From NCBI GenBank assembly GCA_944326555.1, contig CALVEK010000001.1:1-64000 (forward strand): a stretch of 64,000 bases of DNA, written 5' to 3'. Origin of the DNA: Candidatus Gastranaerophilales bacterium (GTDB lineage Bacteria > Cyanobacteriota > Vampirovibrionia > Gastranaerophilales > Gastranaerophilaceae). Below, in pieces: positions 21,638-46,969 of this stretch. Made by a program: the position numbers and the translations under genes. The notes under the pieces are model-generated. The model searched no databases and was not told where the DNA came from. It saw only the letters and a program-made list of their open reading frames with translations. Numbering within the stretch: the stretch's first letter is position 1; each line of letters starts with the position of its first letter.

Positions 21638-22072
21638 ATGCTTATAAAACAATTTGAACAAGGCAGAACTTTTATGGCAAAGCTGAATCAAAATTCTGAT
21701 TTGCTTGAAGAACTGAACAAAATTTGTATAGATGAAAATATAACAGCGGGAACAATAAACCTGATAGGAGCAATTTCAAGCCTAAAATTGGGTTTTTATG
21801 ATCAGGTTACAAAGCAATATATATACACAACATACGCATACGACGAGCCTATGGAAATCGTTTCTTGTACAGGGAATATTTCTCTAAAAGACGGTAAACC
21901 GTTCTGCCACATACACTTAATCGCAGCAGATAAAAAAGGAAAATGCATAGGCGGACACCTTGTTCAAGGTACATCTGTTTTTGCGGGAGAAGTTTGTATT
22001 CAAGAATTGCTTGGAGAAGACCTGAACAGACAACCTGATAAAGAAACCGGTTTGACTCTTTGGACAGAATAA
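21638..22072 (+). CDS. PPC/DUF296 domain protein
   Basis: This 144-residue protein matches the stand-alone PPC (DUF296) domain: FEQGRTFMAKL near the start, EELNKICIDENITAGTINLI, ISLKDGKPFCHIHLIAAD with the metal-binding HxH, and GGHLVQGTSVFAGEVCIQEL. These form trimers. In plants the domain follows AT-hooks, and bacterial single-domain forms have no settled function. I start at ATG 21638. The open frame extends further upstream over the divergent gene without a better start. It precedes the CDF-CorC gene by 103 bp. Confidence 0.87.
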   Translation: MLIKQFEQGRTFMAKLNQNSDLLEELNKICIDENITAGTINLIGAISSLKLGFYDQVTKQYIYTTYAYDEPMEIVSCTGNISLKDGKPFCHIHLIAADKKGKCIGGHLVQGTSVFAGEVCIQELLGEDLNRQPDKETGLTLWTE

Positions 22073-22175
22073 AAATCGTCGACAATAAACACAAAAAACA
22101 TTGCACACAAAGCTGTTTACGGTTATTATATTAACTGGTAGTTAAAATAAATAATAAATCATATAAGGATTTAAG

Positions 22176-24077
22176 ATGTCATCTGACAGTAATAAATTAG
22201 AAACTATTAAAAACGAAGAAAATACAGAAAATAATATCAACGAAGATAACACTGTTAATACAGAAGAATCTTTTCAGGAAAAAGCAGATAATTCAAAATT
22301 TATGGCCGTAATAAAGGCTTTAATCGCTAATTTAGGAATTGCACTTGTTAAATTAATTTGCTTTTTCTTCTCTTCAAGTTCTGCTATGTTAGCAGAAGCA
22401 ATTCACTCCGGTGTTGATTCTTTCAACAGTATTTGCCTTTTAATAGGTATTAAAAGAGGCTCAAAACCCGCAGATACGGCTCATCCTTTCGGATATGGTT
22501 TAGAAGCCAACATTTGGGCAATGTTTGCTTCCATACTTATGCTGGGTGGTACTTTTGTAGCTATATATCACGGTTTTGAAAAACTTATCCACGCAGAAAA
22601 TGTAAGTGATTTGCTTGTACACTACAACGCAATAGCAATAGCATTGTTATGCAGTATATGCTTTGAAGCGTGGGCAGTTGTCAGCGCATCAAAAGCTGTA
22701 TTGCACGAAGTAGGCATTGAAGAAAAAAATCCCGTAAAAGAATTTTTTAGATCCATAAAATACATTGGACACATAAAAAGCCCAACAACAAAATTTGTTT
22801 GGTACGAAGACACTGCAGCCTTTAGCGGTGTAGTTATAGCTTTTGTTTCTCTTACCATGGCAAAATTTGTTATGCCTGAAAAACTTGCATATATTCCCGA
22901 TGCTATTGCATCTATCATAATCGGTATAATCTTGTTTTTCTTAGCTATTTATTTGCTAAAAAACAACGTTAACAGCCTTACGGTACAATCTGCAGAGCCT
23001 GATGTAGAAGAAAAAATAAGAGAAGTTGCTTCTACAATTCACGGTATTACGGGCGTAATTGAACTTAAGACAATAGACTTAGGTTCTTCAGGATTAATCA
23101 TCAATATGACAATAGAAGTTGACCCCGAAACTCAAATGAAAGATGCTGATGATATTGCAGATATGCTCGAAAGGAAAATTAAAAAAGAGATAAGAAATAT
23201 TACTCACATTACAATTGAGCTGCAAGCACACGATGCAGAAGATAACTGGGAAGAAAAATTTTATAAATTAATTAAAGAAGGCGAAAAAATAGAAACCATA
23301 GATAGCCACGAGGCTACAATGCTGCAAAATTTCTTTGGTTTTGCAAATACCGTTGTAAAAGAAATTATGGTTCCAAGAACTGAAATTTTTATGGTCAATG
23401 CTCAAGAGAATATTAATGCTCTTGCTGATTTAATCATAAGTTCAGGTCATACAAGAATCCCTGTATATAGAGATAACGTTGATAATGTTATAGGCGTGAT
23501 AAACGCAAAAGACGTATTAAAAGTAATTAAAAATAACAATATTGACGAAAATTTCTCAATAGAAACACTGGCAAGAGAACTGTTAATTGTTCCGGAAAAC
23601 AAATTCATCTCAGATTTGCTCAGTGATTTTACCTCTTCAAAAAATCAAATTGCAGCCGTAGTTGATGAACACGGCGGAGTTGCAGGTATTGTTACAATCG
23701 AAGACATCATTGAAGAAATTGTCGGCGAAATTTATGACGAATTTGATAAAGTTGAAACCCCTGAAATTGTGAGAATAGATGACAATACACTGAATGTTTC
23801 TTGCAAAATGGACATTGAAGATATTAACGAAAAATATGACCTTGATATACCAAATGAAGATTTTCAAACAATTGGCGGTTATGTTTTCGGTCTTTTGGGC
23901 AGAGAACCTGAGCTTAATGACGTAATAGAAGATAAAAATATTACTTATACAATACTCGAAATTGACGGAAGAAGAATTTCAAGAATAAAAATGTATAGAG
24001 AAACTCCTTTTGTGGATGTTAAAGAACAAGAAAAATTGATAGAAGAAAATTCAAACAATACTGAAGAAAATTCTTGA
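22176..24077 (+). CDS. CDF-family cation transporter fused to a CBS/CorC_HlyC regulatory module
   Basis: This 633-residue protein joins two domains normally found apart. Residues 1-40 are an acidic Asn/Glu-rich tail. Residues about 42-350 are a cation diffusion facilitator: HxxxD (H77, D81) in TM2, HPFGYG (103-108), an E211-D212 pair in TM5 as in SLC30A9-like CDFs, and a cytoplasmic ferredoxin-like domain. Residues about 375-610 are the CorC/HlyC cytosolic half: KEIMVPRTEIF, two CBS motifs (SGHTRIPVYRDNVDNVIGV; VVDEHGGVAGIVTIEDIIEE) and a C-terminal CorC domain (DFQTIGGYVFGLLG). In CorB/CorC/CNNM this half follows a DUF21 membrane domain, which is missing here. A nucleotide-gated metal exporter is plausible (inference). 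The gene is monocistronic, with a good ATG. Confidence 0.9.
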   Translation: MSSDSNKLETIKNEENTENNINEDNTVNTEESFQEKADNSKFMAVIKALIANLGIALVKLICFFFSSSSAMLAEAIHSGVDSFNSICLLIGIKRGSKPADTAHPFGYGLEANIWAMFASILMLGGTFVAIYHGFEKLIHAENVSDLLVHYNAIAIALLCSICFEAWAVVSASKAVLHEVGIEEKNPVKEFFRSIKYIGHIKSPTTKFVWYEDTAAFSGVVIAFVSLTMAKFVMPEKLAYIPDAIASIIIGIILFFLAIYLLKNNVNSLTVQSAEPDVEEKIREVASTIHGITGVIELKTIDLGSSGLIINMTIEVDPETQMKDADDIADMLERKIKKEIRNITHITIELQAHDAEDNWEEKFYKLIKEGEKIETIDSHEATMLQNFFGFANTVVKEIMVPRTEIFMVNAQENINALADLIISSGHTRIPVYRDNVDNVIGVINAKDVLKVIKNNNIDENFSIETLARELLIVPENKFISDLLSDFTSSKNQIAAVVDEHGGVAGIVTIEDIIEEIVGEIYDEFDKVETPEIVRIDDNTLNVSCKMDIEDINEKYDLDIPNEDFQTIGGYVFGLLGREPELNDVIEDKNITYTILEIDGRRISRIKMYRETPFVDVKEQEKLIEENSNNTEENS

Positions 24078-24091
24078 TATAATTTTAAAAA

Positions 24092-24748
24092 TTAATGGAG
24101 ATTGTATTCACTACAGCTTGTTACAAAGATTGTTAAATCTTCTATTTTGCTTTTTCTAAAAGTTTTTATCATTTCAGACATTGTACTTCCTGTAGTTAAA
24201 ATGTCATCTATCAACAACAATTTTTCATCGTGATAGTTTTCTTTTTGACATTTAAATGCGTCCTTAAGATTTTTTTCTCTTTGTTTTTTTGTCAATTTAT
24301 ATTGTGGTTTTGTATCTTTTATTCGAAAAATCAAATCAGAATTTACACTGTAACCCGTCAGTTTAGCAAACTCCTCCGCAACTAGCTGCATGTGGTTATA
24401 TTTTCTTTTAACTTCCCTTTCTTTAAAAAGAGGAACGGGGACAATTACAAAATTTTCTTGCGAAACTGTTAGTTTTTTCCAATAATCGTACATTAATTTT
24501 GCCTGAAAAAAAGCAAGTTCTTTTTGATTATGATATTTAATTCCCCTTATCATTTTTTTCACTTCATCAGCGTACAAACTTGCACAATAAACAGGTACAT
24601 TGTCTAAGGTTTGAAACTTTTTAGGCTGTAAAAAGTTTATTTTTTTATAACACTTAGAACACATGATGGTATTTTCTTTTGATTTTAAACAAAAATAACA
24701 TCTCTTTTTGTATATTAAGTCGAGTAATTGTTTTAAAAAATTAATCAT
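24092..24748 (-). CDS. comFC: ComF family phosphoribosyltransferase-like protein (ComFC)
   Basis: This 218-residue protein has an N-terminal CxxC pair set typical of ComFC (CYFC...CSKC), a central VPVPLFKEREVKRKYNH and the PRPP-loop LLLIDDILTTGSTMSEM. ComF proteins are needed for DNA uptake in transformable bacteria and act with ComFA-like helicases. In many genomes the gene is kept without known competence. It converges with the CDF-CorC gene (14 bp apart) and diverges from rseP (59 bp shared promoter region). Confidence 0.9.
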   Translation of the reverse strand: MINFLKQLLDLIYKKRCYFCLKSKENTIMCSKCYKKINFLQPKKFQTLDNVPVYCASLYADEVKKMIRGIKYHNQKELAFFQAKLMYDYWKKLTVSQENFVIVPVPLFKEREVKRKYNHMQLVAEEFAKLTGYSVNSDLIFRIKDTKPQYKLTKKQREKNLKDAFKCQKENYHDEKLLLIDDILTTGSTMSEMIKTFRKSKIEDLTIFVTSCSEYNLH

Positions 24749-24807
24749 ATAATAATTATAATATGATAAAATAGTCTTACACGTAGCTTTTTGAGAGAGA
24801 AAAATAC

Positions 24808-26178
24808 ATGAATATTATTATAATGCTTTTGCTGATAAGTTTTTTGATACTTGTTCACGAATTGGGACATTTTATGTCGGCAAGATTTCTTGGTATCAAA
24901 GTAGACAAATTCGGTTTTGGCTTACCTTTTGGACCAACATTATTTAAAGGTAAAATCGGTGATACGGAAATTCTTGTACATGCCCTTTTATTAGGCGGAT
25001 ATGTCGCTTTCCCCGATGATGATACGGAATCAAAAGAAGAAAAAAATCCAGAAGATTTGTTCAAAAATAAACCGATATGGAAAAGGGCAATCGTCGTATC
25101 AGCAGGGGTAATTGCCAATGTTATATGTGCAATTCTTCTTGTAATTTTTACGGCATCTGTTTGGCACAAACTGCCTGCAGGCAAATACAACATTACTGTT
25201 GATAAAATCACTGCCCCCAAAAGTGCATCAGTACATTATTCGGGCTTAAAAAAAGGTGATAAAATTTATAAAATTAACGGTTCTGAAATATTCCAACCTT
25301 TTCAAATCAACAAATACGCTACAGAAAGTAAATTGCATGACGGCTTAATTACTCAGGAAATTTACAACGACAGATTAAATGCTTTAAAAGAAAAGAATTC
25401 TCAAATTACTGATATTTACAAAGCTGTTGAAAATGGTAAAAAAATCGTACTTGTTCCGCTAAAAGATGAAAAAGAATTGCACCTTTCAAAAGCAGCTTTA
25501 ATGGGTATGGAAAAAGTAAAATCAGACCCTATTAAGCTGACCAAAGAACAAATTACATTAAGAGACAAAATACAAGGCAAGGAATATTATATTTCGGATG
25601 GAAAATACTCTTTGTCAGATATAGCAAAATCCTTGGCCGATACAAAAAAACCTATGTATTTTACAGTTATAAGAGACGGTAAAGAAATAGAATTAAAGCC
25701 GATATATTCAGACAACAAAGGAATAATCGGTATTCAACAAAATCTTGAAGAAGTTCTTTTACCTGCAAAAACGCCTGTAGAAATATTAAAGGCTTCGTTT
25801 GCTTATACTTGGAGAATCACTGATTACACTATTTTAGGTTTAGAAAAATTGTTCACAGGTCAAATACCTGTTAAAGAATTACATGGTATTGTTGCAATTA
25901 CCAAAGTTGGCGGTGATATGATTCAAAATACAGGTATATTCAACGGATTACTGCTGACAGCAATTATCAGTATAAACCTTGCTATTATGAACCTTTTGCC
26001 TATTCCTGCTTTGGATGGCGGGCATCTTTTATTTTTAATAATAGAAAAAATCAAAGGTAAGCCTCTTGATGAGGAAGTCGTTGCTAAGATTAGTAATTTC
26101 TTCTTTTTACTTTTGATAATATTGATGTTGTTAATAGTATTTAACGATATTTTTGCTTTAATTACCAAAAAAATATAA
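24808..26178 (+). CDS. rseP: Site-2 protease family zinc metalloprotease (RseP-like)
   Basis: This 456-residue inner-membrane protease carries HELGH (H17, E18, H21) in the first transmembrane helix and NLLPIPALDGGHLLF in the last third. These are the zinc ligands of M50/S2P enzymes. A PDZ-like domain (GLKKGDKIYKINGSEI) and a second periplasmic segment lie between. RseP cuts anti-sigma factors and signal-peptide remnants inside the membrane. ATG start with a GAGAGAG box. It is followed after 9 bp by a matrixin-like protease gene, so the pair is probably co-translated. The target regulator is not in the window. Confidence 0.93.
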   Translation: MNIIIMLLLISFLILVHELGHFMSARFLGIKVDKFGFGLPFGPTLFKGKIGDTEILVHALLLGGYVAFPDDDTESKEEKNPEDLFKNKPIWKRAIVVSAGVIANVICAILLVIFTASVWHKLPAGKYNITVDKITAPKSASVHYSGLKKGDKIYKINGSEIFQPFQINKYATESKLHDGLITQEIYNDRLNALKEKNSQITDIYKAVENGKKIVLVPLKDEKELHLSKAALMGMEKVKSDPIKLTKEQITLRDKIQGKEYYISDGKYSLSDIAKSLADTKKPMYFTVIRDGKEIELKPIYSDNKGIIGIQQNLEEVLLPAKTPVEILKASFAYTWRITDYTILGLEKLFTGQIPVKELHGIVAITKVGGDMIQNTGIFNGLLLTAIISINLAIMNLLPIPALDGGHLLFLIIEKIKGKPLDEEVVAKISNFFFLLLIILMLLIVFNDIFALITKKI

Positions 26179-26187
26179 AATCAAAAC

Positions 26188-26997
26188 ATGGAATATTTAA
26201 CTTATCTACAAGACAACTTAAAAGACAATCGCCTTGTAAGATGGCCTGAAAGTTGTTTTCCTTTAAAATTTTATATAGCTCCATTCAGATGGTACGCAAG
26301 GAGCGGCAATGACACTTATATTTACCAAGCCCTTGTAAAAAGAGCATTGGATGCTTGGGAAAAAGTCAGTGCAGGTAAAGTCAGATTTAAGGTAGTAAAC
26401 ACATTAAACGAATCTCAAATTAATCTGGATTGGAAAAGAGTAGACAGAAAAGCTCTCGGGCACTGCTATTTTCATTTTGATAATAACAGCAGACTCTACA
26501 GTGCCGAAGTTCAAATCGGCTTGTCTGACGGAATTTTACACCAACAGTATCAGGATGAAAATGAGGTTTACCATACCATATTACACGAAATAGGTCATGC
26601 ACTTGGCTTGGGACACAGTCCATATCAATCGGATATTATGTATACACCACACAAATACGGTGTTGTAAGTGTTTCAAAAAGAGATGCAGCTTCTTTGCAA
26701 TGGTTGTACAAATTGCCTTATGGTATTTCTGTAAGTGAGATGGCACAAAGATATGGAGTTAATTCCTCCAACATAGATGATATTATTTTAAAAGCATCAC
26801 TCTCTGATAAACATAATAGTGCTTTTGAAGAAGTTAAAAACAGTATTAAAATTCCTCAAAAAGATTTGATGAATGAACAAGATAAAATAGCAGAACTGAA
26901 AAAATATAACCTCGGGTTACAAAATATACAGATTTCATCTGATGTACAAGATTATATTAAGAAAAATTTGACGATGAAGAATAAAAAAGACAAATAA
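26188..26997 (+). CDS. Matrixin-like zinc metalloprotease (M10 family)
   Basis: This 269-residue protein has a complete metzincin site HEIGHALGLGH (H133, E134, H137, H143) and a Met-turn at M151 (SDIMYTP). The preceding ALDAWEKVSAGKVRFK and EVQIGLSDG strands are typical of matrixins. Unlike most matrixins it has no signal peptide, propeptide or cysteine switch. The N-terminus begins directly with MEYLTYLQDN. It may act in the cytoplasm or be exported by a non-Sec route. The C-terminal 80 residues are helical and charged. It sits 9 bp after rseP and its stop lies inside a strong terminator. Confidence 0.85.
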   Translation: MEYLTYLQDNLKDNRLVRWPESCFPLKFYIAPFRWYARSGNDTYIYQALVKRALDAWEKVSAGKVRFKVVNTLNESQINLDWKRVDRKALGHCYFHFDNNSRLYSAEVQIGLSDGILHQQYQDENEVYHTILHEIGHALGLGHSPYQSDIMYTPHKYGVVSVSKRDAASLQWLYKLPYGISVSEMAQRYGVNSSNIDDIILKASLSDKHNSAFEEVKNSIKIPQKDLMNEQDKIAELKKYNLGLQNIQISSDVQDYIKKNLTMKNKKDK

Positions 26998-27028
26998 ACC
27001 ACACTAATAAGGTTAATTTGTCTTTTTT
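26983..27028. terminator. Bidirectional terminator between the matrixin and glgA genes
   Basis: An 18-nt arm (AAAAAAGACAAATAAACC) pairs with its near-complement at 27011-27028 around a 10-nt loop. A/T tracts on both sides give T-runs in each direction, ending both convergent genes. Confidence 0.85.
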
Positions 27029-40902: not shown

Positions 40903-42033
40903 TTATCTTATTTGTATAGGCATGATAAGACAAAGGTAATCATCTTCACTATCAGGTCTAAACAATGTAGCTGATAAACTACCACCCAAACCTATCTTAA
41001 CTTTTTCCGATTCCATTATTTTTAAGGAATCTAAAACATATCTGTAGTTAAAAGCTATTGTCAACTCATCATCTGTATATTCAGCAGATATAGAATCTTC
41101 TCCCAATCCGGCATCAGGCGTATCAGCTTTCAAGAAGAGAGTATTTTCTCCGAATATAAACTTAACGATATTTGTTCTTTCGTTTACCATTACAGCAACT
41201 CTCTCTAAAGCAGATATCATATCTTCTCTGGATAATACCGCATTCTTTTCGCAAGACTGAGGAATAAGTTGCTTGTATGGAGGATATTCACCTTCCAACA
41301 ATCTTGATGACATTATCATTGATGCTGTTTTAAAGATTATTCTTGTTTTTTCTATGATTAAACATATTTTTTCATCATTAATAAATGATGCTATTCTCAA
41401 AAATTCTTGTAAAGTTTTTGACGGAATAACGCAACTTATACTTGCGTCTTTCTCATTTGTAATTTTTTCTACGATTCTTGTTAAGCGGTTTCCGTCTGTT
41501 GCTGCCATTTCTATATTTTCTTTAGAAATTGAACAAAATACACCGCTTATTATATTTCTGTTTTCGTAATTTGCTGCAGAAAAAGCTGTATATTTTATTG
41601 ATTTTATGAAAGGATTCAAGTCAATTTCCACACACTCTTTTTCTTTTAATTCTTCTTCGTTTATTGTTTGAGGAAATTCATCAGCAGAAATACCAATCAA
41701 TTCAAATTTTGAGTTTCCGCAAATTATATTCACGATATTAGTTTCAGAATTAAGTGAAAAAACAACAGGTTTATTACTCAATTTAGAAACAATTTCCGAC
41801 AATTTTTTTGCAGGAAGTGTAATTTTTCCGGGAGTTTGAACAGAAGCAACTGTTTTTGAAGTAATATTTATATCCAAATCAGTTGCAGAAAAAGTTATAA
41901 AATTATCAGGAGTTGCATCTATCAATATATTGGAAAGTACAGGTTGAATACCTCTTGCAACTGTAGTTTTTTCTACAATTTTTAAATTTGTAAGCAGTGA
42001 TTCTTTTTCTATAGTAAATTCCATATTTGACAT
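40903..42033 (-). CDS. dnaN: DNA polymerase III beta sliding clamp
   Basis: This 376-residue protein has the three-domain clamp fold: FTIEKESLLTNLKIVEKTT, FSATDLDINI, MAATDGNRLTRI, EYPPYKQLIP and the C-terminal YLCLIMPIQIR. It tethers DNA polymerase III and recruits other factors. dnaN commonly flanks the chromosome origin. In Cyanobacteria the origin is often next to dnaN rather than dnaA. The upstream region here has an origin-like 9-mer cluster. ATG 42033 with GGAG 11 bp upstream. Confidence 0.97.
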   Translation of the reverse strand: MSNMEFTIEKESLLTNLKIVEKTTVARGIQPVLSNILIDATPDNFITFSATDLDINITSKTVASVQTPGKITLPAKKLSEIVSKLSNKPVVFSLNSETNIVNIICGNSKFELIGISADEFPQTINEEELKEKECVEIDLNPFIKSIKYTAFSAANYENRNIISGVFCSISKENIEMAATDGNRLTRIVEKITNEKDASISCVIPSKTLQEFLRIASFINDEKICLIIEKTRIIFKTASMIMSSRLLEGEYPPYKQLIPQSCEKNAVLSREDMISALERVAVMVNERTNIVKFIFGENTLFLKADTPDAGLGEDSISAEYTDDELTIAFNYRYVLDSLKIMESEKVKIGLGGSLSATLFRPDSEDDYLCLIMPIQIR

Positions 42034-42055
42034 TTAACTCATTTCTCCTGACAGC

Positions 42056-42324
42056 TTTATATTATTTATTAATTAATATATATAAATATATAATATAAAT
42101 AATAATAGTAATAAAGACTAAAAAATCTGTTTAAAACTATTATAAACCAAACAGGCAAAAGGAAACAACTTGTTCAAAACAATGTTAATTTTTTGTAGAA
42201 AACCTGTTCATAATTTTCAATAACTTTTTAAGATTTTGTTTAAAATACTAAATCCTGTAGAAAACTGTATAAAATTATACAAAATTTGAACAACCATTTT
42301 ATAGTTTTGAACAGGTTTTGAACA
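42056..42324. other. Candidate chromosome replication origin (oriC) beside dnaN
   Basis: The gene-free interval 42034-42379 holds a 52-bp tract of pure A/T (42056-42107), suitable as an unwinding element, then ten 9-mers fitting TTTTNNACA or one base off. On the minus strand: 42128-42136, 42171-42179, 42194-42202, 42205-42213, 42237-42245, 42256-42264 and 42266-42274. On the plus strand: 42284-42292, 42305-42313 and 42316-42324. The last two are in an 11-bp tandem repeat. TTTTCCACA-like boxes are typical DnaA sites. Transcription polarity flips near here. None of the boxes is a perfect consensus, so this is inferred. Confidence 0.55.
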
Positions 42325-42355
42325 ATCAAAAAGATACATGTTATTACAAAAAATT

Positions 42356-42371
42356 GGCATGGAACCATGCC
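42356..42371 (-). terminator. Terminator downstream of the 104-residue unknown gene
   Basis: A perfect palindrome (GGCATGG-tt-CCATGCC on the minus strand) is followed by AATTTTTTG and lies 9 bp after the stop. It would keep transcription out of the candidate origin. Confidence 0.7.
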
Positions 42372-42379
42372 CTAAACCT

Positions 42380-42694
42380 TTAAATATCAATATCTTTACA
42401 ATTTTTAAAATTATTTGCTTTTTGTTCGTGAATCCATCTTGCCATTTTTTGTTGTTCAAAACTCAGCGCAAAATTGTATAAACTTTGAATAAGATTTCTT
42501 CCGCTTGGTGATTTTCCTATAAAAAATGTTGAACCAACTTTGTTTTTTGCTATATAAATTTCTTTTTGTATTATTCTGTCTACATTACTCTTTGCAGGAG
42601 ATTCTATTTTTATTTTTAACCACACAAACAAAAGAGAAACGGATGGTTTCTCTTTGTTTTGTTTTAAAAATTCTGAAAATTCCTGTAAAATCAT
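42380..42694 (-). CDS. Hypothetical protein (104 residues)
   Basis: Not recognised. The predicted soluble protein starts MILQEFSEFLKQNKEKPSVS, has a central beta-like stretch (KVGSTFFIGKSPSGRNLIQS) and ends in a Lys/Gln-rich helix with RWIHEQKAN. No catalytic motif or membrane segment was seen. It begins 5 bp after the isochorismatase-like gene stop and is therefore probably translated from the same message. A terminator follows, and the candidate oriC is next. Confidence 0.5.
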   Translation of the reverse strand: MILQEFSEFLKQNKEKPSVSLLFVWLKIKIESPAKSNVDRIIQKEIYIAKNKVGSTFFIGKSPSGRNLIQSLYNFALSFEQQKMARWIHEQKANNFKNCKDIDI

Positions 42695-44629: not shown

Positions 44630-44770
44630 GCCGTAGTATATGTGTGTAAGGGGAACGCCATCTCCCCAAAACTCAGAAAGTATAAGGCTTTTAAGCCTCT
44701 GATTATGTTGCAATGCAATCAGTGAGCTTATTATGCCCTATTAGAGTTACAAGGAAGTATAAAAAACTCT
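44630..44770 (+). promoter_or_regulatory. Flagellin upstream region with four hairpins
   Basis: The region between a GCCGTAGT string (44630-44637, resembling a sigma28 -10 GCCGATAA but without a well-spaced -35) and the flagellin ribosome site contains hairpins at 44650-44667 (GGGGA/TCCCC), 44685-44698 (AGGCT/AGCCT), 44699-44722 (CTGATT/AATCAG) and 44743-44770 (AGAGTT/AACTCT). It does not fit the cyclic di-GMP-I riboswitch consensus. It may be an mRNA-stabilising leader for an abundant product. Confidence 0.4.
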
Positions 44771-44790
44771 CTCAGAAAGGAGCTATCACT

Positions 44791-45705
44791 ATGGCTATTA
44801 TTGTAAACACAAACTTATCTGCGTTAAAAACGCAAAAAAACCTTACCAGTGCAACAAATTCTTTGAACCAAGCATTGGAAAGAATGTCAACAGGTTATAA
44901 AATTAACTCTGCAAAAGATGATGCAGCAGGTTTATACGTAGCAACAGGTTTAGAAACACAAATTAGGGGTTCAAAAGTAGCTCAAGATAACATAGCTACA
45001 GGGACTAACGTGTTACAAACCGTTGAAGGCGATTTGGATAATATATTGACCAACTTGAATCGTATCAGAGATCTTGCAACACAAGCAGCAAACAGTATCT
45101 ATGGCGATGATGAGATGGATGCAATGTATGATGAGGTAGAAGCGCGTCTTGAGGAAATAAACAGAATATCCAAAGCATCAAACTTCAACGGTTTAACACT
45201 GTTAGACGGTCAATCAAGATTGGCTACAGACGGCTTAAGACTTCAAGTTGGAGCCAATGCGGATATTTCAGGTAACAGTATTATGATTGATGGAGCATTG
45301 TTTGACCAAATTGATGCTACAACGCTTGGTGCAACAGGTAATAACCATGCTAATGCGGGTTCACAAGTTACAGATGGTATGACAATAACAGAAGGTGCTC
45401 AACATGCATTCTTGGCAGCAACTGCCGCTGCAAGTTATATCGCTATTGTTGATAACGCTATTGACCAAATTTCAACAAACAAAGCAACAATCGGTGCTGT
45501 TATGAACAGATTGGAATCTGCTACAGAATCATTAACAACAACAATTGAAAATGCTACAGCAGCAAAATCAACAATCATGGATGCTGATATTGCCGAAGAA
45601 TCTGCTGAATATACAAGATCACAAATTCTTCAACAGACATCAGCAGCTCTTATGGTACAAGCAAACGCATTGCCACAAATTGCAATTCAACTTGTACAAG
45701 GATAA
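44791..45705 (+). CDS. fliC: Flagellin
   Basis: This 304-residue protein builds the flagellar filament. The conserved N-terminal D0/D1 domain reads MAIIVNTNLSALKTQKNL, ERMSTGYKINSAKDDAAGL and QDNIATGTNVLQTVEGDL. The C-terminal domain reads VMNRLESATESLTTTIENAT, ADIAEESAEYTRSQILQQT and ANALPQIAIQLVQG. The central variable domain is short and Ala/Thr-rich. I start at ATG 44791 with AAAGGAG. The longer upstream frame is in the leader. The gene is monocistronic, with a terminator right after. Confidence 0.97.
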   Translation: MAIIVNTNLSALKTQKNLTSATNSLNQALERMSTGYKINSAKDDAAGLYVATGLETQIRGSKVAQDNIATGTNVLQTVEGDLDNILTNLNRIRDLATQAANSIYGDDEMDAMYDEVEARLEEINRISKASNFNGLTLLDGQSRLATDGLRLQVGANADISGNSIMIDGALFDQIDATTLGATGNNHANAGSQVTDGMTITEGAQHAFLAATAAASYIAIVDNAIDQISTNKATIGAVMNRLESATESLTTTIENATAAKSTIMDADIAEESAEYTRSQILQQTSAALMVQANALPQIAIQLVQG

Positions 45706-45766: not shown

Positions 45767-46969
45767 TTAAACAAGTGCTTTTCCTGCAACAAAACCGCAG
45801 GACCAACAGTTTTGCAGGTTAAAACCTCCTGTTAATCCGTCTATGTCTACAACTTCTCCACAGAAAAAAAGATTTTTTATCAATTTTGATTCCATTGTTT
45901 TTGAATCTATTTCTTTTAAATCTACTCCTCCTGCTGTAACAATTTCTTCTCCTAATGTTGTTTTTTGAGCATTTAGGATAAATTCAGTCAAAATTTTTGA
46001 AATCTTTTGTCTGTTTTTTTTTGTTAACTGACCTGCTTTTATGTCTTTTTTTATGTTTTCTTTTTCTAATATGCAATATGCAAGGTTTTTGGGTATAAAA
46101 TCCGATAAAACGTTTACAATATCTTTTTGAGCGTTATTTTTTAATGTTTTAGAAAAAATGTCATCAAATTCTTCAAAATTTTTATTTACCAAATTAAATG
46201 ATATTTTAAGAGGATTTTTCTCATCAAAATTTGAATATGCAAAGTAAGAAGATATTTTGTATACAACAGGCCCTGAAATACCAAAATGCGTAAAAAGCAA
46301 ATCTCCGCTCAATTGTTTTTGTTTTTTGTTGTTAACAAAAACTGTTGCAGTGATATTTTTTACACTAACACCTGCAAGTGAATAATAATTATTTTCTTTG
46401 GTTTTTAATGAACACAAAGCAGGTTTTAAATCGACTATATTGTGTCCGAGTTTCTTTGCTAATTCTTGGCCGTTTCCTTTTCCGCCTGTTGATATAACAA
46501 CTTTGTCAAAGGTATACAAATTTTTGTTTGTTTTTATTTTAAATTTATCTTTTTCTTTTTTTAGTTCGATAACATTTTCAAAAACTTTTTTTATATTTTT
46601 GTTTTTATCTACTTCTTTTATTAGAGCGTCCTTTACTTCTTTTGAAGAATCGGAAACGGGGAAGATTCTGTTATCTTTTTGAGTATAGGTTTTTACACCG
46701 ATTTTTTCAAAAAAGTTTAAGGTATCTTTTGTAGAGAATTTGGAAAAGATACTATATAAAAATTTTTCACCACGAGGATAAAATTTTGACAGTTCTTTAA
46801 AGTTGTATTCAGCATAAGCCAGATTACACCTGCCTCCACCTGTTGGTAGTATGGTTTTTAGTATTATATTTTTATCAAAAATATAAATGTTATTACTCTT
46901 ATTTTCAGATGCAGTTAATGCACACATAACCCCTGCAGGGCCGCCGCCAATAATTGCTATATCAGTCAT
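45767..46969 (-). CDS. HI0933/YhiN-family FAD-dependent oxidoreductase
   Basis: This 400-residue flavoprotein has the dinucleotide motif IAIIGGGPAGVMCAL at the start, TGGGRCNLAY, VISTGGKGNG and the C-terminal LTGGFNLQNCWSCGFVAGKA. The family includes YhiN and BaiN. BaiN reduces bile-acid intermediates in some gut bacteria, but family membership alone does not give the substrate. I start at ATG 46969, where GAGGAGAA precedes it. The start overlaps the folK stop by 8 bp, so the two are coupled. Confidence 0.9.
   Translation of the reverse strand: MTDIAIIGGGPAGVMCALTASENKSNNIYIFDKNIILKTILPTGGGRCNLAYAEYNFKELSKFYPRGEKFLYSIFSKFSTKDTLNFFEKIGVKTYTQKDNRIFPVSDSSKEVKDALIKEVDKNKNIKKVFENVIELKKEKDKFKIKTNKNLYTFDKVVISTGGKGNGQELAKKLGHNIVDLKPALCSLKTKENNYYSLAGVSVKNITATVFVNNKKQKQLSGDLLFTHFGISGPVVYKISSYFAYSNFDEKNPLKISFNLVNKNFEEFDDIFSKTLKNNAQKDIVNVLSDFIPKNLAYCILEKENIKKDIKAGQLTKKNRQKISKILTEFILNAQKTTLGEEIVTAGGVDLKEIDSKTMESKLIKNLFFCGEVVDIDGLTGGFNLQNCWSCGFVAGKALV

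Follow-up and report, generated by a model that had tools for sequence, protein, structure and literature searches.

Results

Features of the dnaN locus

We analyzed a 64,000-nucleotide stretch of DNA (the window), which is the start of contig C1 in a genome of 45 contigs (2.08 Mb, about one third G+C). Its dnaN product is 94% identical to that of MAGs named Candidatus Gastranaerophilales, an order of Melainabacteria; the GTDB name of the class containing this order we take to be Vampirovibrionia. The initial annotation had proposed a replication origin in an array of 9-mers that adjoins dnaN and lies near a 52-bp pure A/T tract. The features of the region are as follows.

40903–42033, minus strand: dnaN, DNA polymerase III sliding clamp, the gene adjacent to the array
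42056–42107, no strand assigned: pure A/T tract of 52 bp, probable DNA-unwinding element, overlapping the trio-like repeats
42091–42114, no strand assigned: DnaA-trio-like repeats AAT-AAT-GAT-AAT-AAT-AAA-TAT-AAT (3' to 5'), coordinates derived from the spacer
42128–42136, minus strand: TTTTAAACA, the box nearest dnaN and likely anchor of an unwinding module
42128–42324 (197 bp), no strand assigned: putative DnaA-box array, eight exact matches to TTTTNNACA and two that are one base away
42128, 42171, 42194, 42205, 42237, 42256 and 42266: starts of array boxes on the minus strand, all exact except TTATGAACA at 42205
42284, 42305 and 42316: starts of array boxes on the plus strand, all exact except ATTTGAACA at 42284
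42356–42371, minus strand: stem-loop followed by a T run, probable terminator of the next gene
42380–42694, minus strand: 104-aa open reading frame across the array from dnaN, no Pfam match

The stem of the probable terminator recurs in other members of the genus, and its RNA fold is not unusual relative to shuffled sequences (z = -0.74). This element probably shields the proposed origin from the gene at 42380–42694. The genome's dnaA gene lies away from the array, on contig C13. A flagellin gene with Pfam flagellin N and C domains is found at 44713–45705, 2.3 kb from the array.

We evaluated the array against chance. The initial annotation had counted ten 9-mers in 197 bp; the arrangement it described (seven minus boxes and then three plus boxes, two of which form an 11-bp tandem at 42305/42316) is correct, but the figure of ten is a selection, with 14 matches at one mismatch in the array region. 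This looser count reaches 17 at 46574, another spot in the window, so diagnostic value is confined to the exact motif. Exact TTTTNNACA occurs at a mean of 0.25 per 200 bp across the window, and the next-highest peak is 3. Dinucleotide-preserving shuffles of the region gave a mean of 0.51, and 0 of 3,000 shuffles reached the observed 8. When all XXXXNNXXX patterns containing G or C were tried on the shuffles, the best reached a maximum of 6, so the result is not due to post-hoc choice of a pattern. These results indicate a cluster of DnaA-box-like 9-mers beyond chance expectation.

Conservation of the array in relatives

The initial annotation had suggested looking for conserved 9-mers upstream of dnaN in related genomes, and these are present in every genus genome with a dnaN match and in most of the order. 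We searched 22 other genomes from the same genus, of which 21 had a dnaN match and one did not. Together with the genome under study, 22 of 22 genomes with a match carry the array beside dnaN with matching spacing; the 1 kb upstream of the gene (809 bp in one genome) contains between 6 and 12 exact 9-mers in every case. In an alignment of 15 of these genomes, bases 1–4 and 7–9 are mostly retained at seven of the ten sites, where bases 5–6 toggle among GA, CT, AT and AA. The poorly kept sites lie at -241, -212 and -180. Column conservation is 0.84 in boxes and 0.77 elsewhere (p = 0.0008; the box list includes one coding site). At the site homologous to the box at 42128–42136, relatives have TTTTATACA or TTTTGAACA.

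For the order, 80 named loci were reduced to 73 by dropping seven with less than 400 bp upstream of dnaN. At least three TTWTNNACA motifs were present in 65 of the 73, and at least three TTWTNCACA motifs in none. A targeted scan of exception genomes showed that in two of them (G023 and G028) the array lies about 5 kb from dnaN rather than next to it; the scan found no array for G024, G025 or families f12 and f14. A generic ranking of repeated 9-mers in the exception genomes favored single G/C-rich words. Among the genomes examined, families f11 and f12 had no box array near dnaN, and no origin was found for f11, f12 or f14. Second, diverged dnaN-like genes were observed in two genomes (G031:C3:35120-36133 and G081:C5:29953-31023).

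GC skew and gene strand

Between 27.0 and 44.5 kb of the window, 0 kb of genes lie on the plus strand and 15.5 kb on the minus strand. From 44.8 to 60 kb, 11.8 kb are plus and 1.7 kb minus, placing the turn at 44.6 kb. The gene directions and hand base counts reported earlier were reproduced. The proposed GC-skew check held in a contig of the same genus and in a single-contig relative. In the window, the cumulative minimum falls at 47.5 kb, 5 kb off the array. In a contig from the same genus (G022:C4, 243 kb read), the minimum lies in the 5-kb bin holding the dnaN start, 212 kb from dnaA. The skew of a single-contig relative (G059), read at 20 sampled places, changes sign at dnaN and again at 0.58–0.69 Mb, about half a genome from dnaN. 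GC skew and gene strand thus reverse at the site, with the window minimum 5 kb away, and the skew turn in relatives and the conserved 9-mers support the origin proposed beside dnaN. Positions 22000–27000 of the window show a local reversed GC skew with plus-strand genes inside the otherwise minus arm; this stretch is perhaps an inserted or inverted segment.

A box, spacer and trio-like repeats

The A/T tract is the longest in the window and adjoins the boxes; its role in unwinding is putative. The basal unwinding module, as defined in PMC8287927, consists of a DnaA box, a spacer of at most 16 bp and at least three NAN triplets. At our locus, the last box towards dnaN is followed by a 13-bp spacer and then by eight trio-like triplets that overlap the A/T tract, an arrangement that fits the known module. 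GAT is not the commonest triplet in this genome (1 of 8) as it is in many relatives from the order; in this genus AAT predominates among the trios, and many order relatives have GAT-GAT-GAT-GAT at 13–15 bp. A box, a 12–15 bp spacer and a trio were found in many genomes of families f1–f8 and also in f13. The words GTAGTAG/CTACTAC are also enriched, as judged by a crude shuffle by base pairs. The box-spacer-trio pattern matched 86 of 194 genomes, and a reversed control also matched often, so single matches are a guide and not proof. The trio-like continuation of the array is one of two points that the initial annotation missed; the other is a class-wide change in the box that is paired with a changed DnaA.

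Boxes and DnaA proteins across the class

We compared the boxes of the class with those of the rest of the phylum. The class box is TTTT(CT, GA, AT or AA)ACA, as opposed to the cyanobacterial TTTTCCACA. The C at base 6 of TTWTNCACA and TTTTCCACA is replaced here. Base 6 is T in 281, A in 238, G in 11 and C in 10 of 540 order-locus boxes, and bases 5–6 read GA in 164, CT in 139, AT in 116 and AA in 59, with CA and GT nearly absent. The two bases are interdependent (0 of 2,000 shuffles reach the observed level), and this holds when only every fourth locus is used. We scored the base-6 majority in genomes with at least four TTWTNNACA motifs in 400 bp; 18 of the 80 class genomes and 16 of the 39 others had fewer boxes in the DNA examined and were excluded. 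Base 6 is mostly A/T in 59 of 62 qualifying class genomes, with three mixed, and mostly C in 23 of 23 from the rest of the phylum, chiefly as TTTTCCACA. The 9-mers had been described as atypical; they are so in lacking C at base 6, and this property extends across the class together with the changed initiator.

DnaA in this genome is a single protein with DnaA_N, AAA+ and C-terminal HTH domains. Published work reports that D433 of Escherichia coli DnaA is an Asp that contacts the DnaA box, calls the equivalent residue highly conserved among all classes (PMC8235120) and ties D433 to base 7, not 6. We read this position by alignment to E. coli D433; the reading covered 115 of the 135 class genomes and 40 of the 41 other phylum genomes in which a domain match was present. 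None of the 115 class genomes has the Asp of canonical domain IV; in its place stand Lys (92), Thr (9), Arg (6), Gly (4), Gln (3) and Asn (1). All 40 genomes from the rest of the phylum have the Asp. The recognition helix begins with RDHTT or KDHTT in E. coli and the other classes of the phylum, and with KKHTT in this genome. In families f11, f12 and f14, the residue at the D433 position is Gly, Thr or mostly Gln. The helix is changed further in f11 and f12 (L168–L179), to GRGNS and NRTHSS.

G032 encodes two extra short DnaA C-terminal-like open reading frames (L087 and L088). L087 (202 aa) reads RKDHST, retaining the Asp, unlike the full DnaA in the same MAG; it could be of phage origin, a paralogue or a contaminant. 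In G059 (L149, L376), DnaA carries Gln where E. coli has D433 (GGRQHST). On its dnaN side this genome has TTATCAACA arranged in an array, accompanied by ATGATGA repeats; the boxes may represent a third type.

A different explanation for the boxes is that the site is an origin whose sequence drifted towards A/T independently of the DnaA residue. A/T at base 6 is partly to be expected in genomes with a G+C content of about one third, and 67 of 95 TTWTNNACA motifs in the rest of the window show it. We nevertheless consider this explanation unlikely. C6 is found in 10 of 540 order-locus boxes compared to 13 of 95 background motifs, the four favored base 5–6 pairs make up 478 of 540 compared to 31 of 95, CA and GT are nearly missing, and the Asp has gone from all 115 class genomes.

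Discussion

The array beside dnaN is very probably the chromosomal oriC of this Candidatus Gastranaerophilales genome, a conclusion drawn from sequence comparisons. We also consider likely the fuller explanation, in which DnaA would bind the boxes, opening would be guided by the trio-like repeats, and the altered box would go with the loss of the D433 Asp across the class. Points against it are the 5-kb offset of the window's skew minimum, the predominance of AAT over GAT in the trios of this genus, the class genomes with few boxes, families f11, f12 and f14, for which no origin was found, and the published assignment of D433 to base 7.

It is very unlikely that the array is instead a dnaN regulatory region, bound by DnaA or another repressor, with replication starting elsewhere. 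The array does sit upstream of dnaN, but it is about 5 kb from that gene in G023 and G028, and this separability argues against a dnaN operator. The skew and gene-strand turn at the array and a box-spacer-trio module typical of origins also speak against this reading, and we rejected it. Isolated one-mismatch matches are common in A/T-rich DNA, but we give practically no credence to a chance cluster, which no shuffle reproduced and which is refuted by retention of the array at homologous sites in 22 genomes. A plasmid or phage origin was rejected because the neighbors are core genes (atpD, dapF-like, dnaN and HPPK).

We propose the following model for the chromosomal origin. DnaA made from contig C13 would bind the 9-mers as DnaA boxes. 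DnaA molecules anchored at 42128–42136 would extend past the 13-bp spacer over the trio-like repeats and unwind the A/T tract, and replication would then proceed in both directions. Replacement of the D433 equivalent by Lys (sometimes Arg, Thr, Gln, Gly or Asn) may alter reading at bases 5–6, and a Lys in place of an acceptor beside bases 5–7 could plausibly change reading there. We hold with moderate confidence that the residue change causes the altered reading, in an association that rests largely on one ancestral change and is therefore a correlation. We read these sequences as pointing to a shift shared by initiator and origin throughout the class. With slightly less confidence, we favor a model in which the near-universal recognition Asp was lost in the ancestor of the Melainabacteria class and C6 boxes gave way to a two-base code (CT, GA, AT or AA at bases 5–6), such that initiators and origins would mismatch those of photosynthetic cyanobacteria.

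Few protein-DNA pairs in bacteria are as conserved as DnaA and its box. A class without the D433 Asp and with changed boxes would represent a natural experiment on the joint change of an essential initiator and its origin. Origin finders built on TTATCCACA or TTTTCCACA would overlook these origins or put them in the wrong place. A search for TTTTCTACA and TTTTGAACA with a trio would locate them, aiding replication-rate estimates from gut Melainabacteria metagenomes.

Comparison with known systems

In a literature search that covered few subscription papers, we found no account of Melainabacteria, Vampirovibrio or Gastranaerophilales origins or DnaA boxes. The locus resembles the oriC of Synechococcus, Anabaena and Cyanothece (PMC4674748), where a 9-mer box array also lies by the dnaN start with an A/T-rich stretch. 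The cyanobacterial box is TTTTCCACA, whereas here C6 is replaced and bases 5–6 are CT, GA, AT or AA; the Cyanobacteria read in our analysis have KDHTT in DnaA, in contrast to KKHTT in this genome.

The locus matches the basal unwinding system (PMC8287927) in having a box, a 13-bp spacer and, on the expected strand, more than three NAN triplets. Our locus differs in that trios of this genus are mostly AAT, with GAT-GAT-GAT-GAT in many relatives of the order. Epsilonproteobacterial boxes (PMC5043019) also show a lineage-specific shift, which is discussed alongside alterations where the recognition helix starts. Those boxes have a fixed T at base 5 and retain C at base 6, and the 433-434 dyad is kept, whereas in this class base 6 has changed and the usual residue 433 is gone. 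Thermotoga maritima DnaA (PMC7561715, PMC10225481) has likewise lost the usual base-contacting residues and reads a different box. Its motif is 12 bp long, unlike the boxes described here, which remain 9-mers that keep T1–T4 and A7 C8 A9.
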